IMG/VR virus record: IMGVR_UViG_3300034774_000312
Span: 1-44,648 of that record
Length of the DNA stretch: 44,648 nucleotides
Origin: a virus
Strand: one strand, 5' to 3'
The notes under the pieces are model-generated. The model had not been told where the DNA came from and ran no database searches. It worked only from the letters and a program-made list of their open reading frames with translations. Of this stretch, positions 3,662 to 43,815 are shown piece by piece; the first letter of the stretch is position 1, and the number at the start of each line of letters is the position of its first letter. Both the position numbers and the translations under genes were made by a program.

Positions 3662-4357
3662 TCATGCGTGGGCGTGGAAGACCTGCGCCATCTTAGCAAA
3701 ATCGATGGGAGTGAGAACATGTCCAAGACTTTGCCGACCATGTGCTGCACGTGACATTGGGGCTCCACCGCCACCACCCATAGCAGCGCCAGGACCGGCA
3801 GCCATACCGCCTATCATTTCTGGCATGGGGGGTCTTTGACGCAGAGCCGCCGGAGGTATAGGCGGAGGTATGGCCTGTCGCCCCTTCATTATCTTGGGTA
3901 CTTCTTTGAGAAGCTGAGCAGCTTCAGACACACCCCCACTCTCTGCACTCATATTTATCGCGTCTTGGATTGCGCGTGGGCCCCCGCTCTTAGCCGCAGC
4001 GGCAGCTTGTTGAGCTTTGCCTTTCGCAACTCGCTCCGCCACCAAGCGGGCCATCGTGCGACTTGAGACAGTCTTACCAATCTTTTCGAGAGAGATTTCT
4101 CCGCTCTGGTCAAGTGCTTGTAGCGCTCTAATCCCCGAAGCAATCTTCGAGAACTTCATGTGCTGGCGCGTGAGCTCCTTGCCAATGTACCAAGCCGCGG
4201 TCTTGAGTGTGAACTTTGAAACGCGGTGCGTATGCGCAGCCACCTTATGCAGGCCTACTTCACGAACGCGTTGCATGAGGTCGTGCATCGCAGGGTTCAA
4301 ATTGACCTGTGCGTTGCCGAGCTTTTCGAGTAGTTGTTCGTGATTCATATCAGTCAC
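3662..4357 (-). CDS. Virion-cluster protein, 231 aa, unknown function
   Basis: A 231-residue protein of no recognised family. The first 110 residues are Lys/Ala-rich and helical in character, with LLEKLGNAQ near the start and LKTAAWY around 51-57. The last third is Pro/Met/Gly-rich low complexity (PPPIPPAALRQRPPMPEM and a GGGGGAP run), similar in style to the large virion-type gene upstream. The ATG overlaps the stop of the upstream gene (ATGA), and its own stop lies three bases before the protease start, so it is translationally coupled within the late operon. Probably a structural or assembly protein; that is inferred from location. Confidence 0.7.
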   Translation of the reverse strand: MTDMNHEQLLEKLGNAQVNLNPAMHDLMQRVREVGLHKVAAHTHRVSKFTLKTAAWYIGKELTRQHMKFSKIASGIRALQALDQSGEISLEKIGKTVSSRTMARLVAERVAKGKAQQAAAAAKSGGPRAIQDAINMSAESGGVSEAAQLLKEVPKIMKGRQAIPPPIPPAALRQRPPMPEMIGGMAAGPGAAMGGGGGAPMSRAAHGRQSLGHVLTPIDFAKMAQVFHAHA

Positions 4358-4947
4358 ATTGCCAGGATGCCGCCGGCCTTAGCAACAGCTTGCTCAGCGT
4401 CAGCGAGGTTCTTGAGAGATGCGTAGCTGGGACCCGTGCCGTAGATAGCATGCTCCCGCAGGAAACTGCGAGTGGCATTCTCGTCTGCAGCCAAATTCGG
4501 TGCGAAGCGCTTCATGGTTTCGAAGGCTGAGTTGATCATGGCGGTGTCGGCACTGCCGATGACTTCGTCAGACATCATGTTCTTGAGCACGGTCTGGTGA
4601 CTAGTGCCTAGGTTACGCACCATCTGCGTTTTGAATTGGTTCTGTGCGTTGAGCTTACCGATCTCGGTGTTGGTGGCCTTGGCTTGGTCTGCGTTACCGA
4701 GAAACTGGTCCTCAAGGTGGGCCGCAACCAGTGCGCCAGTGGCGGTTGCGCCTGTGAGCGCTATCCCCTGTGCGATGTGTCCCATCACTTTCTGGGCACC
4801 CGAGACCTCTCCAGTAGCGCCGAACAAACGGGACAGTAGTTTCTCCTTGCCCGCTTTCTTGACGAGCACATGAGGCGCGACCTCCAACAGCCTCATTTTC
4901 TGTGGTGACTGGGCGATCTTCTCAACCGTCTCTTGGAACCGGCTCAC
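4354..4947 (-). CDS. Virion-cluster protein, 197 aa, with a hydrophobic central segment
   Basis: A 197-residue protein without a recognised family. A moderately hydrophobic stretch (IAQGIALTGATATGALVAA, about 57-75) could be a membrane-active or buried helix; the rest is polar and helical. It overlaps the following gene by 4 bases (ATGA) and the preceding one by 4 bases, so it belongs to one coupled block with the 231-, 263- and 244-residue genes. The C-terminus (ADAEQAVAKAGGILAM) is Ala-rich. An internal virion or head-tail region protein is the likeliest role, from context only. Confidence 0.7.
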   Translation of the reverse strand: MSRFQETVEKIAQSPQKMRLLEVAPHVLVKKAGKEKLLSRLFGATGEVSGAQKVMGHIAQGIALTGATATGALVAAHLEDQFLGNADQAKATNTEIGKLNAQNQFKTQMVRNLGTSHQTVLKNMMSDEVIGSADTAMINSAFETMKRFAPNLAADENATRSFLREHAIYGTGPSYASLKNLADAEQAVAKAGGILAM

Positions 4948-16397: not shown

Positions 16398-19300
16398 CTA
16401 TCCGATGGTGACAGGAGTGTTCATGGTGATGTGCCCCTTGCGGTACGCAGCCATCGCGGCGGCCTTGTTCTTGAATCGCTTGGCCTTGCCCGGCTCTTTC
16501 GTGGCGGTCGCCAGGTACGTTCCCAAGATGGCTTCGTGCTGAGGGAATACCATGAGGTCATCCCTATTTTTGTCGCTGAATAGCAACTTAGACAAGGTGA
16601 GTTCTTGTGCCTCGGCCACGGCCTTCTCTGAGATGGGTACGTGGAGCTGCATAGCATCACCGTCGTAGTCAAGGTTCTGCCCCCGTTCCATGAACGGGTT
16701 CACTCGTAGCGACTTTCCTGGAACTGATACAGGGTAAGCAGCAACGAGATTGTGCTTATGCAGAGAGGGAGCGCGATTAACAATAATAGGCCTCTTTTGC
16801 ATTTCGCCATCGAGAATGAGCTTTCCTGTAGGGTGACGTTCTTCGATCATGTCGGCGGCCATTGCTGGCTTGTATCCCTGATTTACCAACCCGCGCATGA
16901 TGAACTTGCTGTAGGTTTTCCACAGCATGTCTTCGGGGATTCCGATCTGATCCATGTCCAAGGTATTGTCAGGGGTAGCCGTCGCTCGTCCAGACAGGTC
17001 TTGTCGGCGGGCCAATATCTTTTTGTGCATGAACCCGGTCTTCGGGGACCCGGTTCCTGTGATCTGTTCGATGAAGCCTTTCGCTTCACGTCCTTTTAGC
17101 TGGGGGCTGGTGGGCTTCATCGTTCCAAACAAGGCACCGGCTGCGTCATGGAGGTGGTGGCGGGCGTCTGCGGTTGCGCCGGGCAACCCAAGGTCGGAAA
17201 TACCACGCAAGGCTTCCGACGCCAAACCCACGTCACGATACAGATAGTTGAGGTCAGACACCTGGAGCTCGTTGCCCCGCTGCGAAGGGAGAATAGGACG
17301 CATCACCGGAGGAACCACAGCCAAGCGGGAAAGAGTGTACGCGGTGCCCGCTCTCTTGTGGTCTCCCTTCTTCAAGGCACGCAGGTATTTCAGCTGCTTG
17401 ATCGCATTGTCTAAGTCAGCACCCTTTTTGTGCTTGGTGAGCTCCAACAGCTCTTTCTTTTTCTTGGCGAGGTCCAAGCGATTGAGGCGGTCACGGATTC
17501 CGGTGCCGCCGACCTCACCTATCTCAGCGCGTAGCTGCGCCTTGGTCATTCCCAGGAAGCGCCGCACAGGCTCTTCAAAAACAGGGTTCACCACCGGTTC
17601 CGCGAGTTCCATGTGAGCCCAACGGGTGCCGCTCAAACCTCCGGTGAGTGCAGGGTCGAACAATCCACCCTTTTCAGGCTTCATGTCCTTGGCACTAACC
17701 ATGAAGGATTTTGATTTCTCCAGGCTAGGAATAGACAGAGGGCCTGAAGACATTTTCTTCACGTCTCTATCCGTCAAGGGGCCTAGGGTTACTTGCGACC
17801 CGGACTTGTCTACGTTAATCCCCGCCCCCTGCAACATGGCCACGAACTTCTCCGAAACGAAGGGAGTCTTGGACGGCGGTGCAGGGAAACCAAACTCGTA
17901 AGCACGCCAGTACTCATCACTCTTTTCACTCTTCACCGTAAGTGCTTCTTTGAGTATGTTGCGGGCGTTGTGTGCGAGGAGCGCGTTGAGCTCCATCTTG
18001 CCCAGCCCCTTAGCCCCCTCTTCACCCCCACGGGTAGGCTGGCGGTTGATGTCGTAAGCGGACACACCGCGGGCAGCGTAGTTGGTCTCCGTAGATTTGA
18101 ACAACTTATGGATGTAGGAATTGCCAACGAAGATGTCATCGATCTTCTTATCGGCGACCGGGTCGTAGACCGTTTCCTTGTCCTTGATGTTGTGCTTCTT
18201 GAGGAGTTTCTTGGCGTACGTGATGTTGTTCTCACGCATGAACTGGGGGAGGATGACAGGCTTGCCCGTCTTCTCTACGACCTTGCCGATCGCGGCTTCT
18301 ACTATCTGCCCAGGGTTGATGCGGCTTACGACGCTAGCTGAGGTGAACAGGACATCAATAGGCTTCCCGTTCTCGGCTTGAACCATGCGCTCATCGGGGA
18401 TGATTTCAGAGACAACGCCTTTGCCTCCGAAACGGTTGGCCAACTTGTCCCCGATTTTCATCGGTTCCTTGGTGCGCACGGTCACCATGATTTGCCGCGC
18501 CGAGTCCATGGTGTCTTGGACCACCGCAGGTACAGGCTTTCCCCACGTAACCGTGATGTCTCGGTACGGCTTGACGAGGGACTTGTGGAAGTTGCCCAGC
18601 AGTGCAGCCTCAGGAGAGGGCGGCGCTTTACGGAGTCCCAAGATGATGGGGTCACCCTTGTGCAAGGTGGCGCCTTTCTTGGCTACCCCGTTGTCGTCTA
18701 GTTTCCCCAGCTGTTCCGCTGTGAAGTTCATCGCATAGTAGGCGGTGTACTTGTCCTTACCGAGGATTATGTCCTTCCCCTTGGAAATGACCTCCTTGTA
18801 CATGTGCTCAGAGGTGAGCTTTGAAGCTGCCCCGGAGCTGATGACGACCGCGTCGTTCGAGTTCTTCCCGTAGTAAGCCATGTACCCTACGGACATGTTT
18901 TTACCGAGGGCCATCGTGCTGTCTTTGGTGAAGTTCGAAGTGGCCAGGGCTTGGTCGGCCTTGACACGGTCTCCAGCCTTCACCGTCACGTCGTTGTGCA
19001 GGTAGGTCTTTGACGAGAGGGGGAAGTAGGTGTCGTAGGGTATTTTTTGCAGGGGCGCAGCGGCTGTTTTTTCGGACGCGGATCCCGTCTTTACTTTGTC
19101 AGGGCGGATGTAGATGTAGTCGGCGTCGACTTTCGCGACCGTGCCGTCAACGAGCGCGGTGGGTACCACCAAGCGTGCTACCTCCCGCTCCATGCTCTGG
19201 CCTGGGCGAGCAGCTGCAGCTTGGACGTAGGGAGCTTCCCGCTCTACCAACGGTAGCGCTTGGGTCTGCATCTTCGCGCCCATGATGGCGCGGTTTCCCT

Positions 19301-20798
19301 GCATTCCATCGAGCAGCGGTACCATTGCGGTGGTGGGGCCGAACATGTAGACAGGGTCGGGGAGCTCGTAGTCAACCTCGCTTCGCTTTACGGACACCAC
19401 GTCGGTCCCGCGGACAGCATCCATCTGGGAGCGGTGGTCTTGTCCGGAGAAAGCGACCGTACTCTTCGCCAAGGTAGTAGCCGGCACGTGGGTCATTTTT
19501 CCCGTGCGGATATCCTTCATGAGCGAGTAGAGATTCCCACGGTGGTCACGGTAAGCGGCCAACCCAGCACGCACGTCGACACCTGCCTTGAAGGTCTCCG
19601 GCGTACGTACGGGGTCGAGGATACCCAGGTGAGTGTTGTGTACTTGGCGAGCCTGAAAAGGAATAGCCCGCTCGCTACTGATTCCACCTTCACCCAGCGA
19701 CGTAATCCGAGAGGCGTGATCAATGATCTCCACCGGATTTATCTGCATGGGTATGGAGGACAGGTTGGAGCTCGTGAGGAACGAGTTGAGCGACTTGGTG
19801 AAGGTGGAGTTGGGGACGATTTCCTTGAGGGTACGCCCTTTCGCTCGGTCCATCTTCAAGCCCACCTTGCGTGCAATGGTGCGCTTCGCATCAACAGTCA
19901 GTCGCTCCCGGAAGAAGTCATCTACCGAGTGCACTGTCTTGAACTCTAGACTGTCACGGTCGTCCTCTGTGTCTTCACCCCGCTGTACTCGGATGAGCTT
20001 TTCCGATGCGGTCAAGAGAGCGAGAGGGTTGGCTTGGCTGACAGGGACACCCAAGGTGCGAGTGTTGACCTCGGGGTCCATAGCAGTGTTCTCGAAGTAA
20101 CTCCGAACGAACTCTTTCTTGCCCTCGACGGTGGTGGGGACCGTGTCTCCACGTCGCTTGATCTTGTTGATGACCTTGTTGAGAGCGACTTCTTCTTTAC
20201 CCTTGAACTTAGACGCGTTGATATCTCTGAGTTCTTCGCCCCAATGCTTTCGAATATCTACGTCAGGTACTCCGAGGGAGCGCAGTAGAGAATACAACGG
20301 GACCTTGGACGTACCGAGTTCCATGTGGAGTCGCCCCGACTCGGGCTCCATGGAGAGCCGGAAGTTGCTGCCTTTGCTCAGGTTGAATGCAGCTTCGAAC
20401 TCGCCGTTGTTCCGTTCTCGGGTGTACACACCCGGCTTCAAGCGCATCTGGCTGGGGATGTCGTACTCATTCCCGCCAACGATGAAGGTGTGCCGCTCAG
20501 TGAAGTAGGGAAGGTGCAGGAGAGTGTGGTTCTTCTTCTCCTCTACGAGCTGCCCCTCGTTGTCCCGCATGACGAGCGTGCCTGTGATCGGCTCGTGTAG
20601 CGTGCGCCCTTTCATGAGCGCTTCCTTCTGCTGGTTGGAGGAGTAGTCCTTCTTCTTCACCTTGACGTTCTTCACCTCAAGCGTGTGACGACGCCCGATG
20701 ATGGGGAACAGGTCCTTCAGGCCACTGACGGTCTTGTCCCGGATATGGTCACGCCGGCTGCTGGCGTCCGTCAAAAGCGGCTGTAATTCCTTGACCAT
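16398..20798 (-). CDS. RNA polymerase beta subunit fused to the N-terminal part of beta' (1466 aa)
   Basis: Residues 1 to about 950 are beta: LGILDPVRTPETFKAGVD (391-408) matches the fork-loop region, then NRAIMGAKMQTQALPL (502-517), NSNDAVVIS (646-654), KIGDKLANRFGGKGVVS (781-797) with the two active-centre lysines, and the C-terminal GGEEGAKGLGKMELNALLA. From about residue 985 it is beta': KPEKGGLFDPALTG (1040-1053), AHMELAEPVVNPVF, SGRATATPDNTLDMDQIGIP, RPIIVNRAPSLHKHN, and the catalytic loop NLDYDGD (1375-1381) with all three Mg-binding aspartates. The N-terminal beta' zinc domain (four Cys) is missing. The chain ends soon after the catalytic loop; the rest of beta' is the gene at 12465-14279. 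No alpha or omega gene was seen. A K-T-A motif (SASEKTAAAP, about 573-582) lies in a beta insertion. Confidence 0.95.
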   Translation of the reverse strand: MVKELQPLLTDASSRRDHIRDKTVSGLKDLFPIIGRRHTLEVKNVKVKKKDYSSNQQKEALMKGRTLHEPITGTLVMRDNEGQLVEEKKNHTLLHLPYFTERHTFIVGGNEYDIPSQMRLKPGVYTRERNNGEFEAAFNLSKGSNFRLSMEPESGRLHMELGTSKVPLYSLLRSLGVPDVDIRKHWGEELRDINASKFKGKEEVALNKVINKIKRRGDTVPTTVEGKKEFVRSYFENTAMDPEVNTRTLGVPVSQANPLALLTASEKLIRVQRGEDTEDDRDSLEFKTVHSVDDFFRERLTVDAKRTIARKVGLKMDRAKGRTLKEIVPNSTFTKSLNSFLTSSNLSSIPMQINPVEIIDHASRITSLGEGGISSERAIPFQARQVHNTHLGILDPVRTPETFKAGVDVRAGLAAYRDHRGNLYSLMKDIRTGKMTHVPATTLAKSTVAFSGQDHRSQMDAVRGTDVVSVKRSEVDYELPDPVYMFGPTTAMVPLLDGMQGNRAIMGAKMQTQALPLVEREAPYVQAAAARPGQSMEREVARLVVPTALVDGTVAKVDADYIYIRPDKVKTGSASEKTAAAPLQKIPYDTYFPLSSKTYLHNDVTVKAGDRVKADQALATSNFTKDSTMALGKNMSVGYMAYYGKNSNDAVVISSGAASKLTSEHMYKEVISKGKDIILGKDKYTAYYAMNFTAEQLGKLDDNGVAKKGATLHKGDPIILGLRKAPPSPEAALLGNFHKSLVKPYRDITVTWGKPVPAVVQDTMDSARQIMVTVRTKEPMKIGDKLANRFGGKGVVSEIIPDERMVQAENGKPIDVLFTSASVVSRINPGQIVEAAIGKVVEKTGKPVILPQFMRENNITYAKKLLKKHNIKDKETVYDPVADKKIDDIFVGNSYIHKLFKSTETNYAARGVSAYDINRQPTRGGEEGAKGLGKMELNALLAHNARNILKEALTVKSEKSDEYWRAYEFGFPAPPSKTPFVSEKFVAMLQGAGINVDKSGSQVTLGPLTDRDVKKMSSGPLSIPSLEKSKSFMVSAKDMKPEKGGLFDPALTGGLSGTRWAHMELAEPVVNPVFEEPVRRFLGMTKAQLRAEIGEVGGTGIRDRLNRLDLAKKKKELLELTKHKKGADLDNAIKQLKYLRALKKGDHKRAGTAYTLSRLAVVPPVMRPILPSQRGNELQVSDLNYLYRDVGLASEALRGISDLGLPGATADARHHLHDAAGALFGTMKPTSPQLKGREAKGFIEQITGTGSPKTGFMHKKILARRQDLSGRATATPDNTLDMDQIGIPEDMLWKTYSKFIMRGLVNQGYKPAMAADMIEERHPTGKLILDGEMQKRPIIVNRAPSLHKHNLVAAYPVSVPGKSLRVNPFMERGQNLDYDGDAMQLHVPISEKAVAEAQELTLSKLLFSDKNRDDLMVFPQHEAILGTYLATATKEPGKAKRFKNKAAAMAAYRKGHITMNTPVTIG

Positions 20799-20800
20799 AG

Positions 20801-20884
20801 ATACTGAAGTATACGCGGTTGGGTCCTAATTACACAACCGCGAGTGGTAAAAGGTTGTGATGCGCCCGTGTTAGTCTCGGGCGC
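20801..20884. promoter_or_regulatory. Divergent control region with three inverted repeats
   Basis: The 127-base gap between the RNA polymerase gene (minus) and the Cys-rich gene (plus) holds three inverted repeats: ATACTGAAGTAT (20801-20812); CGCGGTTG with CAACCGCG (20814-20842, 13-base loop); and GCGCCCG with CGGGCGC (20862-20884, 9-base loop). None is followed by a T-run, so terminators are unlikely. Their place between divergent starts suits operators or 5' leader structures for one or both transcripts. Confidence 0.5.
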
Positions 20885-20925
20885 TGCTCTAGTAGTCCAT
20901 TCTGCGCATCTTGAGGAGGGTGATA

Positions 20926-21573
20926 GTGGAAGACTTGAACGACGTACAGCGCTTCGCAAAGTTGAAATTGGAGTCCTTCGCGGCTTTGAAGGTGGATCAG
21001 CAAATCGCACAGATCTGTGTATGGGCGGTTCATCACGATATGATCGAGCAGGGCCGTATGCTCTGTGATGCTCAGCGGGTAGCCCTGTCGGAAGACCAGA
21101 TGCATGAGGTGGCCTTCTTCTTCTTGAAGGTCTGGCAGTTGGACTTGGGACGGGACGAGCGCACGCACTGTTTCTTGTGCAAGGCGCAACTCCCCGAGCT
21201 CTTCGAGCGCTTGTGTAAGTGTTTCAGGGCGGCTCAGGTGGCTCGCTACATCGACCCCATCACCCCGCAAACCATCATGTACCTACGGAAGCAGTACCCC
21301 GAGGACTGGAACACGCTGATCGTGGAAACGATCCAGTGCCAGAACGCCGAGTGTGGGTGTCTGGCACCTGTGACCGCTGGGGTGGTCAACGCTCGGTTCC
21401 AGAAGGGGCGTACCTGGCGTTCTCCCAAGCTTTGCATGGAGTGCTTCACGCTGAAGAACAAATCCCATGGACAGAGGACTCGGCCCCCTAGGTCGGCCCC
21501 CAAAGCAGCGTCTTCCCTGAAGGCGTTGCAAGTTCATGTGGCTACAGTTTCGCCGCCAACGGCGGAAACCTAA
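20926..21573 (+). CDS. Cys-rich putative zinc-binding protein (215 aa)
   Basis: The frame is open from 20911, but a strong GAGGAGG site at 20913-20919 points to GTG at 20926 (seven bases on) as the start, giving VEDLNDVQRFAKLKLESF as the N-terminus. The first 85 residues look helical. Cys pairs follow: CFLCKAQ and LCKC, then CQNAECGC, then CMEC near 170, enough for one or two zinc sites. The C-terminus is basic. It is the only plus-strand gene between the portal and polymerase blocks and is read divergently from the RNA polymerase. Regulator or small replication accessory are both possible; no family recognised. Confidence 0.7.
   Translation: MEDLNDVQRFAKLKLESFAALKVDQQIAQICVWAVHHDMIEQGRMLCDAQRVALSEDQMHEVAFFFLKVWQLDLGRDERTHCFLCKAQLPELFERLCKCFRAAQVARYIDPITPQTIMYLRKQYPEDWNTLIVETIQCQNAECGCLAPVTAGVVNARFQKGRTWRSPKLCMECFTLKNKSHGQRTRPPRSAPKAASSLKALQVHVATVSPPTAET
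21547..21569 (+). other. Stable hairpin at the end of the Cys-rich gene
   Basis: GTTTCGCCG and CGGCGGAAAC pair around a CCAA loop with one bulged base, just before the stop at 21571-21573. No T-run follows, so it is not a canonical terminator; it may protect or pause the transcript. Confidence 0.45.
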
Positions 21574-28627: not shown

Positions 28628-29618
28628 GAAAAAGATGATTCAAGTACCCTTCGAAAACGTGCTGTGCGACGAAGAGTTCAACGCACGGACTGACTACGAC
28701 CGCGACTACATCCTCTCGCTGAAGAACTCGATCATGGAATCGGGACTGCTTCAGCCCATCGGCGTTACCCCGAAGAAAGGGCCCGATACTGACGACACCA
28801 AGCAGTACTACCTCATCTATGGGTTTTGCCGTTACAAGGCTATCTGCCTGATCCGAGACGAGCTTGGGGTAGATGCCCACTCAGTGCTGGACGTTGTTCT
28901 CAACGAAGGCACGCTCGAAGAGTTGCGAGACCGCAACCTCAAAGAGAACATCGACAGGAAGAGCCTCAAACCCCACGAGATCGCCACCGCCGTCAAGAAG
29001 ATGGTGAACTCGGGCCTGGAGCAACGTGACATCGCGAAGCGCCTGGGCCGTCCACAGAGCTGGGTGAGCTACCACCACAAGGTAGTGACCAAGCTCGGGT
29101 CAGTGGCTTACAAGGCGTTTGAAGCAGGGGATCTCACCCTGGAGCAAGCGCTCAACATCGCGGACGTCCCTGAGGACGCGCAAGACGACGTAGTCAACAA
29201 GGTGCTCAACGCAGGGACTCGTACTGAGGCCCGCAAGCTGGCAAAGCAGGCGTCTAAGGATGCGGGGACACGACGTACCTACGTCAACAAGGGACGACCG
29301 ACGGCCAAGAACTTGGCACAGTTCGTTAGCGATGCATCCTTCGATGCAGAGTCAAACAAGATGGTCGAAACCGACGAAGCATTCTACAACGGTTTGGCAG
29401 CCGGAATGCGCGTCGCCCTAGGGGATCTCGAATTCGAGAAGCTCACTTGTCACGACGACTACACCGACAAGGACTTCCACGCCAAGGAGCGCAAGGCCAA
29501 AGAAGCGGCCAAGGCTAAGGCTGCGAAGGCGGGGGAGAAGCCCAAGAAGAAAAAGACGGCTAAGCGCGCTGCACGGAAGAAGAAAACGCCAGCGGCTGAC
29601 AGCGCCGCCGCCAACTAG
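28620..29618 (+). CDS. ParB-like DNA-binding protein with a Lys/Ala-rich tail (332 aa)
   Basis: Residues 5-120 form a ParB N-terminal domain (ILSLKNSIMESGLLQPIGV; YYLIYGFCRYKAICLI; LRDRNLKENIDRKSLKPHE) and 120-165 a helix-turn-helix (LEQRDIAKRLGRPQSWVSYH). After a central helical region comes a C-terminal stretch of about 50 residues rich in Lys and Ala (KAKAAKAGEKPKKKKTAKRA), resembling histone H1-like tails. ParB-type proteins bind specific DNA sites in partition, replication or gene control. No ParA-like gene was seen in the window, so partition is not supported here; a regulator or nucleoid-like role is possible. The gene converges with the sigma factor, the stops overlapping by four bases. 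Confidence 0.8.
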   Translation: MAKKKMIQVPFENVLCDEEFNARTDYDRDYILSLKNSIMESGLLQPIGVTPKKGPDTDDTKQYYLIYGFCRYKAICLIRDELGVDAHSVLDVVLNEGTLEELRDRNLKENIDRKSLKPHEIATAVKKMVNSGLEQRDIAKRLGRPQSWVSYHHKVVTKLGSVAYKAFEAGDLTLEQALNIADVPEDAQDDVVNKVLNAGTRTEARKLAKQASKDAGTRRTYVNKGRPTAKNLAQFVSDASFDAESNKMVETDEAFYNGLAAGMRVALGDLEFEKLTCHDDYTDKDFHAKERKAKEAAKAKAAKAGEKPKKKKTAKRAARKKKTPAADSAAAN

Positions 29619-30319
29619 AGAGTGACTTGATGTGTCGACGCTGAAGACCGCAATTTCGTAAGCGCGGTCTCACGTAGCTGTCGCACCCTCTCCCCAGTGA
29701 TATCAAGCACCCTCCCAATTTGTTTGAGGGTCTTAGGCGTTGTGTGTATTCCGTAACACGTTTTCACAATAAAGGTTTCACGAATGCTCAAGGGCGTCAG
29801 CACCAAAAGTTTACACACACTTTGTGTTGTGTTTACCTGAGCTGTCTTGTCTTCGGTGACATTCGTTTTCGTATATTCTGTGAGCTCAGTTGCAATAGGT
29901 ATCTTGGTTCCTTTAGCGATGGCGTGAGCGGGGATATGGACAATGCCAATACGGCGTCCCTCTTCACGCATCTCGTGGCGTACCCACCAACCTGCATACG
30001 TCAGGAACCGAGTCCCAGCGTCAGGATTGAATTTCTTCAATGCTCGGATCAACCCGATATTCCCCGCCGCAATGAGATCTTCCAGCACCGCTCGGTTCTG
30101 GAAGGTCCTAGGGCGTTTTCGGGCTTCCGCTATGACGTAACGTAGAGCCCCCTGTATGATCAGGTCCCTCGCTCCGGGGTCCTGTGTCTCATGATGTTTT
30201 CGAATTAGGGTCCGTTCTTCCGCCGCGGTTAGCAGTCGCGTTCCCTCTACATCCTTGTAGTAGAGCGCAAGCGAATCGCGGTTGGGAGGGCGGGCACTAG
30301 TAGTGTTTTGAATACTCAT
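29615..30319 (-). CDS. Phage sigma-70-family factor (234 aa)
   Basis: Region 1.2-like residues 15-42 (DSLALYYKDVEGTRLLTAAEE) are followed by region 2: LEDLIAAGNIGLIRALKKF (79-97) is 2.1-2.2 and TRFLTYAGWWVRHEMREEGR (103-122) covers 2.3-2.4. Region 3 is short or missing. Region 4 ends the chain: LKQIGRVLDITGERVRQLRE (198-217), a helix-turn-helix for a -35 element. A sigma factor directs RNA polymerase to promoters. Since this phage encodes beta and beta' chains, the factor may serve the phage enzyme, the host enzyme, or both. It is the only minus-strand gene in this block and is read divergently from the 30410 gene. Confidence 0.88.
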   Translation of the reverse strand: MSIQNTTSARPPNRDSLALYYKDVEGTRLLTAAEERTLIRKHHETQDPGARDLIIQGALRYVIAEARKRPRTFQNRAVLEDLIAAGNIGLIRALKKFNPDAGTRFLTYAGWWVRHEMREEGRRIGIVHIPAHAIAKGTKIPIATELTEYTKTNVTEDKTAQVNTTQSVCKLLVLTPLSIRETFIVKTCYGIHTTPKTLKQIGRVLDITGERVRQLRETALTKLRSSASTHQVTL

Positions 30320-35441: not shown

Positions 35442-38400
35442 ATGCACAGGAACCAAGAACCCAAAGGTAGGCTGTGTAAGGGGTGCGTCCGTTTCGAGAG
35501 TAAACGGTGTACTCCTTCAAGCCCTGTCGTAACGAAACCCTTCGATATACTGGTGATCGCTGACCAACCAGACGAAAAGTCAGCAACAAACAATGTTCCC
35601 TTTCAGGGGCATGCGGGCCAGATAGCCAAGACGGCCATTACGATCCTGCGGCGCAAGCCGGAGTTTCAATTCATCGAGTGTCGCTACTGCTATGCAGCAC
35701 AGTGCATGGACGAAGATGACACCGCACCTACCAAGGATGTGTTGGCGCAGTGCAACACGTACCTCTCCAGCACCATCCTCTCTACGCGCCCCAAGATAAT
35801 CATCGCCATGGGGGCGGCGGTTATGCGACAGCTGGGGTTCAAGCTCAAGCACAAAGACGCGCGTGGGAAGTTCTTCACCCACCCTCAATTCAAAGCCCAG
35901 GTGCTGGTTACCTTCAGCCAGAAGGCGCTCCTCGCCAAGCCGGGCCTTTTCGAAACGTACAAGCTCGATATACAGAACGCCTTTGAGCGTTCTCAGCGTG
36001 GTCCCGATGAAGAGGTCACACTGGAGAAAATCGCAGGCAAGTACACCATCCCTACAACGGTCGAAGAAGCCGTCCAGGTGTGTGATGACATTGTCAGCTA
36101 CGCCAAAAAGGGGGATCCAGCCAACTGGGCCATCTCGGTCGACACCGAGACAACAACTCTGTATCCGGAGAAAGCATCTGCCAAAGTTATCGGTTTTTGC
36201 TTTGGATGGGGGGATGGTCTTGCAACCACAATCCTTTACGAACATCCACATGCGCCCCAGGAGTACCTGGATCGCCTCCCTGAGATTCGGGAAGCAATTC
36301 AACGTGTCCTGGAGACCTTCAAGCCCAAGATATTCCACAACGCCAAGTTTGACCTCAAGTTCATAGAGCTCAAGTGCGGGTTCACGGTGAGGAACGTCGT
36401 GTGGGATACGCTACTCGGCGAGCACCTCCTCGACGAGGATAAGAAGGGAAGCTACGGCCTGAAGTCTCTGACTGCAGGGTGGCTCCCCAATTACTGTGGG
36501 TACGAAGATAAGCTGTACGACCTTCTCATGTTGCAAGCCGGCATCTCGCAGGTGGAAGCCACGGACAAGGAAATCAGTGATCAGGAAGTCTCCCTACAGG
36601 AAGACCACCCTGAATACCTGGCAGCACTCAAAGCGTTCCGCGATGAGCTCGTCAGCTACACGATTGCACAGAAGCAGTACGCCCTGGACATGGAGGTATT
36701 CGCACTCGCCCTGGAGGGCTACGTCTTCGTGAAAGCGCACCTGGCAGGGCAGCAGGCAGCGTGGCGTGTTGAGGTGTCCGATTGGCCTAAGGGAAAGCGG
36801 GGGAAGCCGAAGAAGCCGGTCAAATGGTTTCGGAAACCCAAGAAGCCCAAGGCTATCAAGAAAGCCAAGCGCCCCAAGGATCCGCGGACCAAGAAAGAAA
36901 AGCAGATCTCGAAGGATGCCGGGTTCGAGAATGTTCCCATACGGGAGCTCCAGATCTATGGGGCGGTGGATGCTGACGTCACGCGGCAGCTCACACAGGT
37001 ACAGCAACGACGCATCAAGAAGGAAGGGTCGAAGGTGGCCCGGCTCATGCGGTCCCACGCAATCCCGGCTACGCGGGTGTTGGGTGCCATGGAGTACAAC
37101 GGTCTGAAGGTGAACCGTCCGTACATCGCGGTGTTGGATGAGGGGCTTCGTAAGATCGTCAACTCGACGGAGTACGAGCTCTATCAGATGGCAGGGACGA
37201 CCAAGGCTGACGGAACTCCCCTGAACCTGAACCACGCGGGGACGCTGGCCAATGTGCTGTACCACTGGGGTTGGAAACACCCTGACGGTACGCAGATGGC
37301 TCCCCATGAGATCCTGGCGAGGACCAAGAAGGGGCAGCCGAGTACCTCGGCAAAACTGCTTGGTCCGATGGTTCGCTACGAAGACGAGGACAAGAAGATA
37401 CCAACACAGGAGTCGTACTTCATTGAACGGCTGCTGCGTTGGCGCAAGAGCTCCAAGGCGCTCAACACATTCCTTGCGAATGTGCGAGTGCTGTCCAAGC
37501 GAGACGGGTTCTTGCACACGCAGTTCCACTTGAATGGAACAGGTACCGGGCGGCTGTCCAGCTCGGACATGAACATGCAGAACATCCCGAAATTCTTGGC
37601 GGGGTGGAACATCAAGAAGCTCTTCATTCCGGATAACGAAGACTTTGTGATCGTCAACGTCGATTACAAGGGTGCCGAGGTCCGGGTATTCACAGCGTAC
37701 GCAAAGGATGAAAAGCTCATTCAAGCCCTCAAAGAGGGTCTGGATATGCACTGTTTCTTTGCTCACAAGGTGTTTGGCAAGCCCTACGAGAAGTACGCCC
37801 ATCGGGGTGATGCTACGTTCATTCCGGATGAAAAGGAGCGCAAGCTCCTTGATCAAGAGCGGTCCACGATCAAGCGCGTGGTGTTCGGTATCCTCTATGG
37901 GGCTGGTCCCATGAAGATCTCCGAAACGATCGGGGTGAGCTTTGATGAAGCAAAGGCGCTTATTGCTTTGCTTTATGAGATGTTCCCCGCGATCAAGACC
38001 TACGCGGAGCGCATCGAACAAGAGGTGCTGCGTAACGGGTTTGTGGAAACACACTTCTTCCGTCGTCGTCGCTTCCCCCTTGCGCATATTTCACGGCATC
38101 GTAGCCGTGCGGTTCGCCAAGCGCGTAACTTCAAGATCCAATCAACGAGCTCTGACATCGTCGTCGCTCAACTCGTCGAAATCGATGAGCCGCTTCGGAA
38201 TACCTTTCCGGGGGCCCGTCACCTTCTCACAGTACATGACTCCATGGTGTTCCAGTTTCCGAAGAAGCATCTGCTGGAGCTCAGAGAGTTTGTGACCTAC
38301 TACGCTGAACAACGTGTGAGCGAGAAGTACCCCTGGCTGCCGGTACCCTTCAAGGTTGACATCGAAATAGGGCCTAGCTATGGGGAATGCCAAGACATTG

Positions 38401-38504
38401 ATAAGTACCTGGCCAAGCACCGATACGTGCCGCGGCAGGAAGGAATCGTAGAAGAAAATGAGCTCCTCACCGAACTCCGAGAAGACGCCTTCGTGGCAGC
38501 CTGA
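35442..38504 (+). CDS. Family A DNA polymerase with 3'-5' exonuclease and N-terminal UDG-like domain (1020 aa)
   Basis: Residues 1-185 look like a uracil-DNA glycosylase superfamily domain with four candidate Fe-S cysteines (C12, C15, C88, C104) and VPFQGHAGQIAKT, but its catalytic motifs are altered. Residues 228-515 are a proofreading exonuclease: VDTETT (D234, E236), FHNAKFD (D304), YGAVDADV (D510/D512), with a long Lys/Pro-rich insertion around 448-490. The polymerase domain has LSSSDMNMQNIP, motif A VDYKGAEVR (D741), motif B RSTIKRVVFGILYG (K811, F815, Y819) and motif C VHDS (D933). It is the replicative polymerase of this phage by context. A fused UDG-like domain is also known in SPO1-type phage polymerases. 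The start follows the primase stop directly. Confidence 0.93.
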   Translation: MHRNQEPKGRLCKGCVRFESKRCTPSSPVVTKPFDILVIADQPDEKSATNNVPFQGHAGQIAKTAITILRRKPEFQFIECRYCYAAQCMDEDDTAPTKDVLAQCNTYLSSTILSTRPKIIIAMGAAVMRQLGFKLKHKDARGKFFTHPQFKAQVLVTFSQKALLAKPGLFETYKLDIQNAFERSQRGPDEEVTLEKIAGKYTIPTTVEEAVQVCDDIVSYAKKGDPANWAISVDTETTTLYPEKASAKVIGFCFGWGDGLATTILYEHPHAPQEYLDRLPEIREAIQRVLETFKPKIFHNAKFDLKFIELKCGFTVRNVVWDTLLGEHLLDEDKKGSYGLKSLTAGWLPNYCGYEDKLYDLLMLQAGISQVEATDKEISDQEVSLQEDHPEYLAALKAFRDELVSYTIAQKQYALDMEVFALALEGYVFVKAHLAGQQAAWRVEVSDWPKGKRGKPKKPVKWFRKPKKPKAIKKAKRPKDPRTKKEKQISKDAGFENVPIRELQIYGAVDADVTRQLTQVQQRRIKKEGSKVARLMRSHAIPATRVLGAMEYNGLKVNRPYIAVLDEGLRKIVNSTEYELYQMAGTTKADGTPLNLNHAGTLANVLYHWGWKHPDGTQMAPHEILARTKKGQPSTSAKLLGPMVRYEDEDKKIPTQESYFIERLLRWRKSSKALNTFLANVRVLSKRDGFLHTQFHLNGTGTGRLSSSDMNMQNIPKFLAGWNIKKLFIPDNEDFVIVNVDYKGAEVRVFTAYAKDEKLIQALKEGLDMHCFFAHKVFGKPYEKYAHRGDATFIPDEKERKLLDQERSTIKRVVFGILYGAGPMKISETIGVSFDEAKALIALLYEMFPAIKTYAERIEQEVLRNGFVETHFFRRRRFPLAHISRHRSRAVRQARNFKIQSTSSDIVVAQLVEIDEPLRNTFPGARHLLTVHDSMVFQFPKKHLLELREFVTYYAEQRVSEKYPWLPVPFKVDIEIGPSYGECQDIDKYLAKHRYVPRQEGIVEENELLTELREDAFVAA

Positions 38505-39105
38505 GCGTGAAACCAAGACCTTCGAGAAATTCGATATGTTCTTCACCATGGGTGTGGTGACTGAGATCAGACACCAATGGACACGTCAGCTCAAAAACAG
38601 GAAGGGTGAAGTCCTCGACCCTAGCGACATAGAAGCCCTGAAGACAAAGCTCGAAGAGGACGAGAAGCCTCAGGTCGAGTGGATCAAGACCGACGCACTT
38701 GTCCGCAACTCGTACGTCGAGTGGGCGAGGTTTCAAGATCTGGAAGACTGCCAGAAGGCTAAGCAGGTGGCAATCTTCTCCACCGCGGACGGGCCAATAC
38801 TAGGCATCGTCCTGGATGAGAGTGAGACCAACGTCTTCCTCGCCGATCCGTGTGTGATCAACTACAACCAGAAGAGTGGTTCAATCCAATACTTGCCTAT
38901 CTTTAATGTTGCTCGCACTCTGCAGCTGCGAAAGAGCGCCATCCGCACGCGCTCCGCACCTGCTGAAATAATCATCGCGAGCTACCCAGGATTCATCCTC
39001 CAAAATCGTATGTACCAGTACCAACTCAGGCCGACCGTCGCGATGGAGTCTACTCCAGAGCTCGACAACGTAGCCGAGGAAGCAGTCACTACAGAGACTG
39101 CGTAA
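38458..39105 (+). CDS. Hypothetical protein, 215 aa, overlapping the polymerase end
   Basis: The ATG at 38458 lies 47 bases inside the polymerase gene with a GGAAGGA stretch about 16 bases upstream; the internal methionine at 38536 is a second possible start. The body (residues 50-185) looks like a folded alpha/beta protein (QVAIFSTADGPILGIVLDE; VFLADPCVINYNQKSG); the C-terminus is acidic. No family recognised. Coupled to the polymerase, so probably a replication accessory. It is the last gene before the structured RNA tract. Confidence 0.65.
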   Translation: MSSSPNSEKTPSWQPERETKTFEKFDMFFTMGVVTEIRHQWTRQLKNRKGEVLDPSDIEALKTKLEEDEKPQVEWIKTDALVRNSYVEWARFQDLEDCQKAKQVAIFSTADGPILGIVLDESETNVFLADPCVINYNQKSGSIQYLPIFNVARTLQLRKSAIRTRSAPAEIIIASYPGFILQNRMYQYQLRPTVAMESTPELDNVAEEAVTTETA

Positions 39106-39119
39106 CTGGTAAAAGAAAT

Positions 39120-39338
39120 TGAGCAGGGCCCGGTAATACCCTCCTATGTCCGCGATGTTCCGTCGCGGATTGTAAGGCCACCCGACCACTTGCGTTACAC
39201 TTGTGGCTAGACGCAGGTCGTCCGTGTCATCTGACATCACCTACGGTGACCGGCCTTCGGCCTTGTGCAGATGCCTGGCCAACCAAAAGCCTGACAGTGC
39301 TCTTTGGAACACTGTCCCAGGTAAGCGGGCCCTGCTCA
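39120..39338 (+). ncRNA. Candidate structured RNA of 219 bases, closed by a perfect 13-bp stem
   Basis: TGAGCAGGGCCCG (39120-39132) is exactly complementary to 39326-39338. Inside are further stems: CCGCGA-TGTTCCG-TCGCGG (39150-39168, extendable by two pairs), CGACC with GGTCG enclosing TGCGT with ACGCA, TGTCATCTGACA, TCACCTACGGTGA, a GGCC-TTC-GGCC hairpin, and GACAGTG with CACTGTC (39293-39316). The loop of the last one contains GGAA, complementary to TTCC in the TGTTCCG loop, so a loop-loop contact is possible. No ORF of note lies inside. It falls between two plus-strand genes; strand is inferred from them. No known RNA family was recognised; it may be a trans-acting RNA or a processed mRNA element. 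Confidence 0.7.
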
Positions 39339-39387
39339 CTATTTTCACCTTCTGATCTCCAAAGCAAGGATTTGCATGGAGGTAGTC

Positions 39388-39582
39388 ATGAAGGTGTTTG
39401 TATTGCTCGAAATCTCCCACGAACACAGTGGACTCTATTGGGTGAAGGACGTTCGCGTCTTCAAATCCGAGGATGAGGCTAACACCGCGTCCGATGAGCT
39501 CAAACTGCCCAAAGGGGAATCACCGTTCACTTACGCCAACTGGTGGGGGTGGATTGGCCCCTGGGAGATAGACCTGGAGTAA
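39388..39582 (+). CDS. Small protein, 64 aa, Trp-rich
   Basis: GGAGG lies five bases before the ATG at 39388; an ATG at 39376 with AAGGA upstream is nearly as good and would add four residues. The protein begins MKVFVLLEISHEHSGLYWVK and ends WWGWIGPWEIDLE, looking like a small folded alpha/beta unit of the kind made early by phages. A strong terminator follows six bases after the stop. It lies between two structured RNA segments. No family recognised. Confidence 0.65.
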   Translation: MKVFVLLEISHEHSGLYWVKDVRVFKSEDEANTASDELKLPKGESPFTYANWWGWIGPWEIDLE

Positions 39583-39587
39583 TAACA

Positions 39588-39625
39588 GGGGCGGTCAGGT
39601 AACACTGGCCGCCCCTTCTTTTTCT
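39588..39625 (+). terminator. Rho-independent terminator after the 64-aa gene
   Basis: GGGGCGGTCA (39588-39597) pairs with TGGCCGCCCC (39606-39615), ten pairs including one G-T, with an eight-base loop, then TTCTTTTTCTC. This is the strongest terminator in the window and ends the plus-strand replication operon. RNA elements beyond it on this strand would need their own promoter, or be made from the minus strand. Confidence 0.88.
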
Positions 39626-39731
39626 CGGCCCCTCTAGAGAGGAGCGGTGTACCGCCGCACATGTGATCGGTAATTTAGGTGCTGGCGTGTGGCAACCCTA
39701 TAGCTGCAGGTTGCCATAGCCTAGCGAGAAA

Positions 39732-39831
39732 GTACCTGGCCACAAAAATACCGTGATGTTCCGTCATGTGCTGAAGCTAATGCAGCTTGGGAAGCCCCTT
39801 TCCAGGCTGTTATGGAAAAGTCAGCAGGTAC
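39732..39831. ncRNA. Candidate structured RNA element closed by GTACCTG/CAGGTAC
   Basis: GTACCTG (39732-39738) pairs exactly with CAGGTAC (39825-39831). Inside are three hairpins in series: CGTGA-TGTTCCG-TCATG (39752-39768, one G-T pair), AAGCT-AATGC-AGCTT (39774-39788), and TTTCCA with TGGAAA (39799-39818). This is a compact multi-branch fold of 100 bases. The first hairpin shares its seven-base loop with 39150-39168 and 39941-39957, on a stem of different sequence. Strand is undetermined. Confidence 0.6.
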
Positions 39832-39844
39832 GAACGTGTGTGCT

Positions 39845-39886
39845 CCCTGTCTAAGCGTCATAAGGCAATACCTTCTGCGCTCAGGG
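39845..39886. ncRNA. Long interrupted hairpin
   Basis: Three four-pair helices stack around internal loops: CCCT with AGGG, AGCG with CGCT, and AAGG with CCTT over a five-base loop. A short GGCG-TTC-CGCC hairpin follows at about 39885-39895. It continues the structured tract between the two TGTTCCG elements. Confidence 0.45.
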
Positions 39887-39925
39887 CGTTCCGCCAACAA
39901 CACAGCAAGAAGACCTTGGAGCCAA

Positions 39926-40033
39926 TAGCCAACGGCTACAGGTGATGTTCCGTCACCGAACGGCGAATGTAATACACTCGCTTCCTAGAATTCCTGGCGC
40001 ATCGCTCTCGAAGACCGACGCTTGAAATTCTAG
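39926..40033. ncRNA. Candidate structured RNA element with third TGTTCCG hairpin
   Basis: In order: TAGCC-AAC-GGCTA (39926-39938); GGTGA-TGTTCCG-TCACC (39941-39957, perfect five-pair stem, the same loop as the other two); GCGA with TCGC around TGT-AAT-ACA (39963-39981); and CTAGAATT with AATTCTAG (39985-40033). Each hairpin follows within a few bases of the last. The series looks like a folded RNA rather than protein binding sites. Confidence 0.6.
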
Positions 40034-40064
40034 TTGCTCAACGCACTGCGTTCGGCCTCCACAT

Positions 40065-40149
40065 CGCCAATCAAGTTGCGTCGCGCGTCTTTCGTCAGAC
40101 ACCCGTGATTGGGTGTCTTGACTTGACGACCTAGCATCCTTGATTGGCG
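40065..40149. ncRNA. 85-base element closed by a perfect 11-bp stem
   Basis: CGCCAATCAAG (40065-40075) is exactly complementary to 40139-40149. Inside is AGACACCC with GGGTGTCT (40097-40118, six-base loop), extended by GTC with GAC across one bulged base. The element ends 28 bases from the terminase stop, so on the minus strand it would be the 3' end of the terminase transcript. No T-run follows, so it is more likely an RNA-stability or processing structure, or a separate RNA. Confidence 0.55.
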
Positions 40150-40177
40150 ACGTACGAGGTCCGAGAGGACAGCAAGG

Positions 40178-41869
40178 TCACTTGTCACTGTTATACGTGA
40201 ACGTGGGATCCATGGTTGCAAACTTGGCAGCCATCCATCCAAATATCTGGGCGTGTAAGCAGTCATCCGGCTGCGAGGGCGCATGCCGCCATACCTTACG
40301 TCCGAGCTTGGTCTCTTCCTCGTACTCGTTGAGCATGTCTTTGATGGGAGTCACCATCTGACGGACGTTGGGGTAGATGACACCTTCTCGCTTCACGAAC
40401 ATGAAGAAGTTGTCGATCATGGCGGTGCGGTCAGCCATGAAACGGTCGATCTTGTTCCAGTAGAACGGCCGCCCGGCCCCTCCGCTACCTGAGGCTCCTC
40501 CACGGTACTGCACCTGCATGGCACGGTGAGCTCCGAGACGTTCGCGCAGGTTGGAGTTGGGTAGAGCTCCGGCACCCGCATCACCAATGACGAGCTGCAC
40601 TTCGAACCGCGTGCAGATATCGATGATGTGGTCAACTACTCCACCGGAGATGGGGTTGGTCTCTGGGTACACCTTGAAGTACAGCGTCTTGAGCCTGAAG
40701 TTGTGGTACTGCCCTCCCGAGCAGATACCCCAGACCCAGAGCACAGTCCGGGAGTTTCCGGAAGCGCCGCCACCCGACCAGTCTACTCCTGCGACAATCC
40801 CGCGCAGGTTTCCGGTGGTCATACTATTGGTCGGGTACTCAGTGATCTCGTAGTCAAGGCATAGCGCTTCGAGTTCTTCCTTGGAGATGAGGCGGGTACC
40901 AATGGCATCCGAAACTCCCATCACCTCGTTCTTGAACTTCGACTCAGGGTAGACGGCGTGCTTTTCTAGTATCCGCTTCCAACGTCGTTCAGCCAACTCT
41001 TGGTTACGTGAGTCACGAGACATAGAAGCGCGGGAATTTTTAGGTAAGATTACCTGAGGTACGTGAAAGCCTTTGATCCGTTTTCCATCAAATCCGGGAG
41101 GATAGACATTCATATCTATCCATTCACCATTCCGAACATTAATGTAGGCTCCGCAATTCAAGCAGACGGGCCCAAACTTACCTAAGCATTTATCATCAAC
41201 GAAAAACTGATGACGACTGCAGGCGTCACACTTAACGACCCATTCAGTCTGTGTACTCCATTGCCACAATGCCTCAATGGTATTCTCCATTGTTTTCGGA
41301 GTGCCGCAATAGGTCTCATACGCAAAATCAGAGTTGGACATACATTCGATGATTACGGGTATGACTTCATCATACAGAATGTCCTGAACCTCGTCGAAAG
41401 CTACACGATCCGCTGATACTCCACGGACACGATCCGGGTCATCACTAGCGTATGAAAACGCTAGCTCCGATCCGTTCGTAAACATCTTCATATAAACGCG
41501 GCTAGACAGTTCTTTAGATACCCACCGTCGTTTTATCTCTGGGGAATAGAATATGGTCTTTCCTACACGGGTCTGAGAAAACTTGGTTGTTTGCTCTTGG
41601 CTGGGGGCAACAAACAAACTCTTCCAGTGGGGTGTACTGCACGCCTCCATGATCAAGAAATTGGCTAGGGTAGTGCTTTTGGCGACCTGTCGCGCAGTTT
41701 TCAATAACGTGGCGTCGTATACGTTGTCATACACGTGGGGGTAGAAGGGGTAGTCGTGTAACGAAAAAGGACTGCCGTCCAAACACAACAGAGATTCCAC
41801 CCAGCCTGCGCGTGTTGTAGTTACTTCAAGCACACGTAAGTCTTTGTTTGATGTATTGCCACGCCGCAT
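40178..41869 (-). CDS. terL: Large terminase subunit (TerL) with zinc motif, 563 aa
   Basis: The DNA-packaging motor: an ATPase that drives DNA through the portal and a nuclease that cuts the concatemer. Seen: GSPFSLHDYPFY (32-43), Walker A variant TARQVAKSTT (58-67), Walker B VAFDEVQD (156-163), two Cys pairs (C214, C217, C236, C239) as a zinc insertion, and an RNase H-like nuclease with GVDWSGGG, LVIGDAGAGAL and QPDDCLHAQ. The ATG at 41869 lies inside the 3' end of the LAGLIDADG gene, giving only about 20 residues before the conserved part. The true N-terminus is uncertain: the frame is open some 17 codons further upstream to a TAG. The two genes overlap by 44 bases. Confidence 0.9.
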   Translation of the reverse strand: MRRGNTSNKDLRVLEVTTTRAGWVESLLCLDGSPFSLHDYPFYPHVYDNVYDATLLKTARQVAKSTTLANFLIMEACSTPHWKSLFVAPSQEQTTKFSQTRVGKTIFYSPEIKRRWVSKELSSRVYMKMFTNGSELAFSYASDDPDRVRGVSADRVAFDEVQDILYDEVIPVIIECMSNSDFAYETYCGTPKTMENTIEALWQWSTQTEWVVKCDACSRHQFFVDDKCLGKFGPVCLNCGAYINVRNGEWIDMNVYPPGFDGKRIKGFHVPQVILPKNSRASMSRDSRNQELAERRWKRILEKHAVYPESKFKNEVMGVSDAIGTRLISKEELEALCLDYEITEYPTNSMTTGNLRGIVAGVDWSGGGASGNSRTVLWVWGICSGGQYHNFRLKTLYFKVYPETNPISGGVVDHIIDICTRFEVQLVIGDAGAGALPNSNLRERLGAHRAMQVQYRGGASGSGGAGRPFYWNKIDRFMADRTAMIDNFFMFVKREGVIYPNVRQMVTPIKDMLNEYEEETKLGRKVWRHAPSQPDDCLHAQIFGWMAAKFATMDPTFTYNSDK

Positions 41870-42509
41870 ACTTGCGTTGCAGGCGTGTCTCGGGGGTACT
41901 ACCTGTGTACAATAAAGTGCCTATATGCAGTACTTCAGCGCGAGAGCCCCATTGTAACCGAACTACTTTTGTTCTGGCTAACTTAGTAGGTTTCTTGAAG
42001 GGAAGGTGGGTATGACACCAATCTACCATTGTAGGACTCACTACAATGGATATCGCAGGTTTGAAGTACTGCGTGGTGCCCCGTACCCCATTGTACGTCC
42101 TTGTAGTGTGAAAAATGGATCCGTCTCCATCAAACAAACCACGCATGTACCAGCTAAGCACGCCAGGGGTACACCCTGGGGGCTGTAGCGTGTGTGTTTT
42201 CCGTGGCGTAATATTCCATACGTGCGCCAAGTCGTCTACCAACCGTTGATTGGTCACGCAGAAGCTAACTGTTTTGCGTTTTTGGTCATGGTAGACTTTT
42301 TGTTGAGTTGCGCCTAACCACGCCTTTAACTGGTATAAGTGGTTGGAATCCTTCACACTAAGATTCAAACGTAAGGACGGCGTCCTTCCTTTCGCGGGAC
42401 AGTGAACACACCCATCAGCGGCAATAAACCCTGCCCAATATGCCGCCGTCAAATCTTGAGGATCTGCGAAAGCAGTGTCTTTGGCAGGTAGGGGACGCGG
42501 AGACATCAT
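41826..42509 (-). CDS. LAGLIDADG homing endonuclease next to terL (227 aa)
   Basis: Two LAGLIDADG helices, YWAGFIAADGC and WYMRGLFDGDGS, are spaced about 100 residues apart, as in single-chain enzymes. The frame extends upstream to 42935, but that part lies antisense inside the MoxR gene, so the start is taken as the ATG pair at 42504-42509. No intein splicing motifs are present. The gene invades the 5' end of terL with a 44-base overlap, typical of a mobile element beside a conserved packaging gene. A group I intron was considered, but there is hardly room for a 5' exon and a ribozyme core. Probably a free-standing endonuclease. Confidence 0.82.
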   Translation of the reverse strand: MMSPRPLPAKDTAFADPQDLTAAYWAGFIAADGCVHCPAKGRTPSLRLNLSVKDSNHLYQLKAWLGATQQKVYHDQKRKTVSFCVTNQRLVDDLAHVWNITPRKTHTLQPPGCTPGVLSWYMRGLFDGDGSIFHTTRTYNGVRGTTQYFKPAISIVVSPTMVDWCHTHLPFKKPTKLARTKVVRLQWGSRAEVLHIGTLLYTGSTPETRLQRKYAAWQYIKQRLTCA

Positions 42510-42534
42510 CCGAGTATGATGGCAAAGGATAGTA

Positions 42535-43815
42535 ATGACAAGTGACAAAAAAGACATGGTCGACCCGTGGGAAAGACTCGGAGTTCGGCCTACCAATATT
42601 GGGATGGTCAGCAAGATTCTAGACGTCGTTTGGGCCATGCCCAAAAGGCTTACAGTCTGTTTGGTGGGTGAGACCGGTATCGGCAAGACACCCATTGTGC
42701 AGCAATGGGCTGCCGAAAAGGGCGGCCACACCAAGATCCTTAACTTCGGGCACATGACCCAAGAAGAGATTTCGATGATCATGTTCGCCGAGAATGGCGA
42801 GTCGTTCGACTTCATTCCTCCAGGGTGGATGTTGAAGCTCAATGACATCGCTGAGAAGCAGGGCAACGCCATCCTCTTCCTCGACGAGTGGAACCGCGGA
42901 GACAAAGCACTCGTCAACGCGCTGTTCACCCTCACCGATGAGCGTCGGATTCACGACTTCACACTTCACAGGAACATCATGGTTGTGGCAGCCATGAACC
43001 CGTCCGATGGGGTGTACCTCGTCAACGAGGCCGAGAAGGACCACGCGATCCGCAAGCGACTGAACTTCATCTACTGCGTCCACGACCTCAAAGCGTGGCT
43101 GGACTACACCAAGAAGTCTCGCTGGTACCCGCTGGTGCCTCAGTTCATCAAGTCAGCATCGAACTTCCTCTACGATGCGGGAGCTCGGGACGCCGGCAAG
43201 ACGTTCGCGTGTCCCTCCAACTGGGAGAAGGTCTCCAACATCATGGAGGGGGCCGAAGCGGCAGGCATGGACCTGACGGGGCCTGCTGTACGTGCACTCG
43301 TCGAAGGTCAAATCGGAGCCGTGGCAGCCACCAAGTTCCTCGACTTCGTCGCAGACCAGAACACGCTCATTCAGCCGAGTGAGATCATTCACAAGTACAA
43401 GGCCAACAGCAACGTGCGCAAGCGCGTGGCTGCTCTGCTGAACAGCAAAATCGACGCGCAGGGCAACTTCGTCGAGGTCAGCAAGAAAAAGAATCGGGCC
43501 GGGGTCATCAACGATCTCAACCAATCACTGGCTATCGAGCTCTTTAGCACAATGCCAGACACGGCGAAAATCGCCAAGCACATCGCACAGTACATCGGTG
43601 ACCTGCCGAACGAGCTACTGAGCACTTTCGCGGCTCAGCACCTCAACGAACAGGGCAAGGCACGGGGACACGAGGGAGAGCTCTACCTCGCGAAACTGTC
43701 CACTGCCATGCAAGGCCACCCCGCGTACAAGAAGAAGATGAAGGTCATCATCACAGCGATGCGGGAGTACAAGCAGAAGGCTGGCCTGATAAAAGGCCGC
43801 GACCCAGCTCAGTAG
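42535..43815 (+). CDS. MoxR-like AAA+ ATPase (426 aa)
   Basis: Walker A GETGIGKT (45-52), Walker B LFLDEWNRG (114-122) and sensor-1 AAMNPSDG (152-159) identify an AAA+ ATPase of the MoxR/dynein-related type. The C-terminal 200 residues are helical. Members remodel proteins, usually together with a von Willebrand A-domain partner; no such partner is visible nearby, though it may lie outside the window. AAAGGA lies six bases before the ATG. It is read divergently from the homing endonuclease with 25 bases between the starts. A role in virion assembly or host takeover is possible; not determined. Confidence 0.85.
   Translation: MTSDKKDMVDPWERLGVRPTNIGMVSKILDVVWAMPKRLTVCLVGETGIGKTPIVQQWAAEKGGHTKILNFGHMTQEEISMIMFAENGESFDFIPPGWMLKLNDIAEKQGNAILFLDEWNRGDKALVNALFTLTDERRIHDFTLHRNIMVVAAMNPSDGVYLVNEAEKDHAIRKRLNFIYCVHDLKAWLDYTKKSRWYPLVPQFIKSASNFLYDAGARDAGKTFACPSNWEKVSNIMEGAEAAGMDLTGPAVRALVEGQIGAVAATKFLDFVADQNTLIQPSEIIHKYKANSNVRKRVAALLNSKIDAQGNFVEVSKKKNRAGVINDLNQSLAIELFSTMPDTAKIAKHIAQYIGDLPNELLSTFAAQHLNEQGKARGHEGELYLAKLSTAMQGHPAYKKKMKVIITAMREYKQKAGLIKGRDPAQ

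Follow-up and report, generated by a model that had tools for sequence, protein, structure and literature searches.

Protein-bound RNA hairpins such as lambda boxB and the MS2 operator carry a constant loop on an exchangeable paired stem, and boxB is repeated within one genome; a constant loop on varying stems is what a bound hairpin usually shows. The pRNA of phi29-type phages is compact and multi-branched, has paired ends and lies near packaging functions, and its structure is kept as its sequence drifts. GOLLD and ROOL are large ornate RNAs of phages and prophages (PMC12286853). The phages closest to the one described here are the multimeric RNAP-encoding Caudovirales (mReC; PMC7481178) and Salmonella phage Arash, whose purified virions contain beta and beta' subunits and a sigma factor (PMC10585845). 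Like them, the virus contig analysed here over its whole length of 44.6 kb (the window) encodes a beta/beta' RNA polymerase, with homologues of both subunits, the property by which mReC are recognised. By polymerase, its nearest isolates are Arash and Vibrio phages D69, D181 and D148, with ~34% identity over 96-100% of the protein. Arash has a promoter motif, TGGTAHAAG, in common with the window; unlike the window, both Arash and D69 lack GATGTWCCGTC, the core of the hairpins described below, give no match to our covariance model, and have other genes beside terminase.

The RNA that we describe resembles GOLLD and ROOL in being phage-encoded, highly structured and noncoding, but its single units are far smaller, sequence and structure differ, and there was no Rfam match even at relaxed thresholds. 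It resembles phi29-type pRNA in being compact and multi-branched, with paired ends, a packaging gene nearby and a structure that outlasts its sequence. However, its neighbouring gene is not that of a phi29-type packaging ATPase but encodes a complete terminase large subunit, the Rfam pRNA model found no match, and the RNA is missing from several close relatives. Its hairpin shares a constant loop and an exchangeable stem with boxB and the MS2 operator, although the loop is a different one, the hairpin is embedded in a larger RNA, and the partner is putative. The initial annotation had recognised no RNA family in the hairpins, and Rfam 15 covariance models gave no match at gathering score either, whether for the window or for any of nine related loci; relaxed E-values added chance matches only, and ARAGORN found 0 tRNA or tmRNA genes in the window. 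We conclude from these sequence comparisons that the RNA is a new, uncatalogued family of structured phage RNA, structured phage RNAs being already known as a kind.

The hairpins lie within a 1.07-kb stretch that separates a rightward operon from the leftward terminase gene. Two parts of it fold much better than shuffled sequence: 39106-39360 (z -5.5) and 39583-40178 (z -7.45). Elsewhere in the window, a 982-aa protein (710-3658) contains an Intein/Hint domain, and a LAGLIDADG endonuclease ORF (41826-42935) overlaps the terminase start. The features of the locus are collected in Table 1.

Table 1 Coordinates of features in the window
Feature	Position	Strand	Description
beta' piece	12465-14279		C-terminal-like, separate ORF; Rpb1_5
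Fused beta-beta' RNA polymerase	16398-20798		beta fused to beta' N-terminal; Rpb2_6, Rpb2_3, Rpb1_2
Sigma factor	29615-30319		
DNA polymerase	35442-38504		Family A-like; rightward operon
215-aa protein	38458-39105		Uncharacterised, conserved; rightward operon, after DNA polymerase
Phage promoter motif	39107-39115	+	TGGTAAAAG; 4-6 nt upstream of RNA 1 start
RNA 1	39120-39338	+	Structured, ~219 nt, 5' and 3' ends paired; from folding, covariation and covariance model
End stem, 5' strand	39121-39132	+	GAGCAGGGCCCG; 12 pairs
End stem, 3' strand	39326-39337	+	CGGGCCCTGCTC; 12 pairs
Anti-Shine-Dalgarno-like segment	39139-39146	+	CCCTCCTA; unpaired in folded models
Hairpin copy 1	39148-39170	+	GTCCGCGA(TGTTCCG)TCGCGGAT; 5' part of RNA 1
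68-aa ORF	39376-39582	+	After RNA 1; no family
Intrinsic terminator	about 39587-39624	+	GGGGCGGTCAGGTAACACTGGCCGCCCC and T-run; conserved in L038, L039/L040
Fourth, weaker hairpin	39644-39658	+	GCGG(TGTACCG)CCGC; loop variant found in relatives
Hairpin copy 2	39752-39768	+	CGTGA(TGTTCCG)TCATG; one G-T (G-U) pair
RNA 3	39914-40177	+	Second structured stretch; bounded by CCTTG/CAAGG, abuts terminase stop codon
Hairpin copy 3	39941-39957	+	GGTGA(TGTTCCG)TCACC
Terminase large subunit	40178-41869		Leftward, convergent

The initial annotation had reported three noncoding hairpins with an invariant TGTTCCG loop. All three were found where it had placed them; the sequence bears out that their stem pairs differ between copies while pairing is kept, one G-T pair included, and the 68-aa ORF, which sits between copies 1 and 2, overlaps none of them. 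Their common core is 11 bases long (GATGTTCCGTC). A TGTTCCG loop on a stem of at least five pairs was observed three times in the window, against 0.08 expected; with no stem requirement the enrichment is mild and unremarkable (12 versus 6.1 expected). No other 7-base loop in the window has three copies within 1 kb on stems of at least five pairs, and a recurring-loop trio of this kind appeared in 0 of 100 dinucleotide-shuffled windows. The predicted fold places a U-G and a G-C pair inside the 7-base loop and leaves a UWC triloop, so the loop may be tighter than it is written here. A GGC(GTTCC)GCC hairpin at ~39886 was too weak and was left out of the count, and a kissing interaction of the TGTTCC loop with a GGAAC of RNA 1 was dropped since it is missing in L038.

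Relatives were found by protein searches among viral contigs, and in about ten related lineages the polymerase gene is followed by that of the 215-aa protein, then by a gap and by terminase. The gap of the window, L038, L039, L041-L044, L045, L046, L047 and L048 starts with TGGTA(A/T/C)AAG, followed a few bases on by GAG, which begins the 5' strand of the end stem. Among these phages the RNA is about 90-230 nt long, and its interior changes completely between relatives while end stem and promoter are kept. Homologues of the hairpin, on which the initial annotation had staked its claim, are present in the gap of four related lineages, always on the same strand and with differing stems: L038 has two with the loop TGTTCCG, copy 2 of the window having no counterpart there, and L039/L040, L046 and L053/L054 have one each, with the loop TGTACCG. 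L041-L045, L047 and L048 have kept promoter and end stem but not the hairpin, and the RNA itself is missing from L049 and L050/L051; hence neither hairpin nor RNA is indispensable.

Compensatory base changes across relatives, the mark of a structured RNA under selection, were found at three levels. Of the stem cells in eight distinct hairpins from the window and its relatives, 97.5% are paired, and four of the five stem pairs are altered on both sides, with the loop constant as TGTWCCG; 0 of 500 shuffles reached this covariation score. The end stem is 100% paired over six lineages, with both-sided compensatory changes in 8 of its 12 pairs, which was likewise matched by 0 of 500 shuffles. Over the whole of RNA 1, the window and L038 keep 68 pairs, of which 10 show compensatory and 7 one-sided wobble changes and none is broken. 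The selection on RNA structure that had been proposed for the hairpins alone thus holds for the end stem and RNA 1 as well. On the opposite strand the one-sided wobble changes would disrupt pairing, and RNA 1 is therefore assigned to the + strand. Its folding z is -5.5 to -5.9, and values of about -6 to -8 were obtained at the locus in the window, L038, L039, L046 and L045. The end stem and hairpin are predicted to be paired and the segment CCCUCCUA single-stranded. A covariance model of RNA 1 built from two phages, the window and L038, matches L039 over its full length (E 3.6e-9) and L046, weakly, at the hairpin only (E 0.41). By these comparisons hairpin 1 is part of a larger discrete RNA with its own promoter motif, and the real unit exceeds the hairpins.

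Pattern searches with promoter plus hairpin, or with hairpin plus CCTYCTA, found no lineage beyond the protein-search set; in the remaining matches the stems are 2-4 pairs long, except for a few (L101, L105) that have 5-6 pairs but no promoter. A two-hairpin pattern matched 32 loci in viral contigs, but almost every one of them contains GATGTTCCGTC many times over; these loci were rejected, the spacing of the copies at multiples of 9 being as expected of collagen-like repeat genes. A terminase profile search of cellular genomes found no relative, and searches of isolated phages with the region (blastn) and with the 215-aa protein found nothing. In a distant relative, L060 (also L061), two tandem noncoding copies of ~270-300 nt adjoin terminase (about 3982-4551, - strand); they fold alike, with 49 shared pairs, 9 compensatory and 0 broken, and L060 has no Rfam match.

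TGGTAHAAG lies upstream of the RNA in every relative that has the end stem, and its distance to the hairpin is 36-39 nt in the window, L038, L039 and L046. Genome-wide it is confined to one strand, with counts of 14 to 0 in the 190-kb relative G006 and 18 to 0 in Arash (OQ632216.1); the reversed motif, taken as a control, has 0-3 occurrences on each strand of the two. Elsewhere in these genomes the motif often follows terminators and stands tens of bases before a Shine-Dalgarno sequence and ATG, and the window has further sites at 42331 and 20845. We infer that the phage polymerase, together with its sigma factor, recognises TGGTAHAAG; in Arash, TGGTATAAG is, by sequence, a candidate phage promoter. 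A literature word search, of which the top matches were considered, found no description of TGGTAHAAG in phages. The region 20799-21250, which also bears the motif, is not unusually structured (z 0.37). Just upstream of one gene's TGGTAAAAG promoter, an element TATACNCGGT...CTAATTACACAACCG is conserved in the window (20811-20853), L114, L125 and L130, and it looks like an operator.

Downstream of RNA 1, the RNA 3 stretch (z -5.6) is conserved in L038, and some pairs are compensatory in the alignment with the window. In the window it folds equally well or better on the - strand, so that energy alone decides no strand; the + strand is suggested by the way in which the shared hairpin is oriented. 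The stretch of RNA 2 and RNA 3 lies behind the terminator, and no promoter was recognised in it. RNA 3 may be a separate RNA or may be one with 39.6-39.85 kb. The sequence of the terminator loop AGGTAACACTGG (about 39595-39607 in the window, also in L038 and L039) is conserved to an unusual degree, and most RNA 1 homologues contain GTTAC, the complement of the GTAAC in this loop.

The comparisons establish, at the level of sequence, the promoter motif, boundaries, strand and base pairing of RNA 1; from these we infer its transcription, its action in trans, its function and its partner. The reading that we favour, with a probability of about one half, is that RNA 1 is a structured small RNA driven by a phage promoter and that the hairpin is a recognition module for a putative partner. 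RNA 1 would be transcribed by the beta-beta' RNA polymerase that the phage itself encodes, with its sigma factor, would be stabilised by its paired ends, and would act in trans. The GAUGUWCCGUC hairpin on its exchangeable stems would be what a single partner recognises, and this partner would most likely be an RNA-binding protein from either phage or host. Several hairpin copies per genome would offer more recognition sites; in the window phage the hairpin is reused in the further structured sequence downstream (39.6-40.2 kb). It seems quite improbable that the RNA is, more specifically, a dedicated partner of the phage RNA polymerase or sigma factor with the hairpin as docking site, for example as a 6S-like regulator or as an RNA that enters the host with the polymerase.

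RNA 1 might instead act in cis, on its own transcript only, as the leader of a small ORF or as part of an inter-operon terminator region. A small ORF and the conserved terminator do follow it both in the window and in L038, where the ORF is similar and in the same place; a T-run stands behind the end stem in L047 and L048, and L050/L051 have a plain terminator in place of the RNA. However, no ORF follows the RNA in L039, L046 or the L041 group, a mere terminator would gain nothing from a separate promoter, and termination needs neither a multi-branched structure nor an invariant hairpin. We regard a role in cis as unlikely, though deserving of some weight. Rather less credible is an anti-Shine-Dalgarno small RNA whose unpaired CCUCCU would pair with ribosome-binding sites of host or phage and block translation, with the hairpin as a scaffold. 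A CUCCU-like segment is indeed found near the same 5' place in all relatives examined, hairpin or not (CYTYCT or TCCTT/CCTTG, a motif defined after looking), but it degenerates to CCUUCU or UCCUU in some of them, and no single well-matched target was found among the gene starts of the window.

The constancy of end stem and promoter around a wholly different interior would also be expected if the RNA evolved fast in an arms race, serving as a decoy for host defence systems or mimicking an RNA of the host; as the RNA resembles neither CRISPR repeats nor tRNA nor any above-threshold Rfam family, we consider this a long shot. The inverted repeats and the adjoining terminase could suggest a DNA element beside the polymerase and terminase genes, such as a replication origin, a packaging site or a repressor site, but a DNA-binding protein would not favour compensated changes in half-sites, the wobble changes fit RNA pairing on the + strand, and the promoter motif reads into the element, all of which leaves a DNA element very improbable. 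Chance repetition, to which the mild enrichment of the bare TGTTCCG would lend itself, is refuted by the shuffled windows and by the covariation of hairpin, with homologues in four other lineages, and end stem.

Phage genomes have few well-defined structured RNAs, and most of these are without a known role. For the RNA described here the boundary is clear, the promoter motif phage-specific and the covariation clean, and the short invariant hairpin can serve as bait, so that the proposed partner can be fished for directly. The RNA occurs in phages whose RNA polymerase is cell-like. For this polymerase group, to which a culturable isolate belongs, our comparisons have also yielded a promoter motif.
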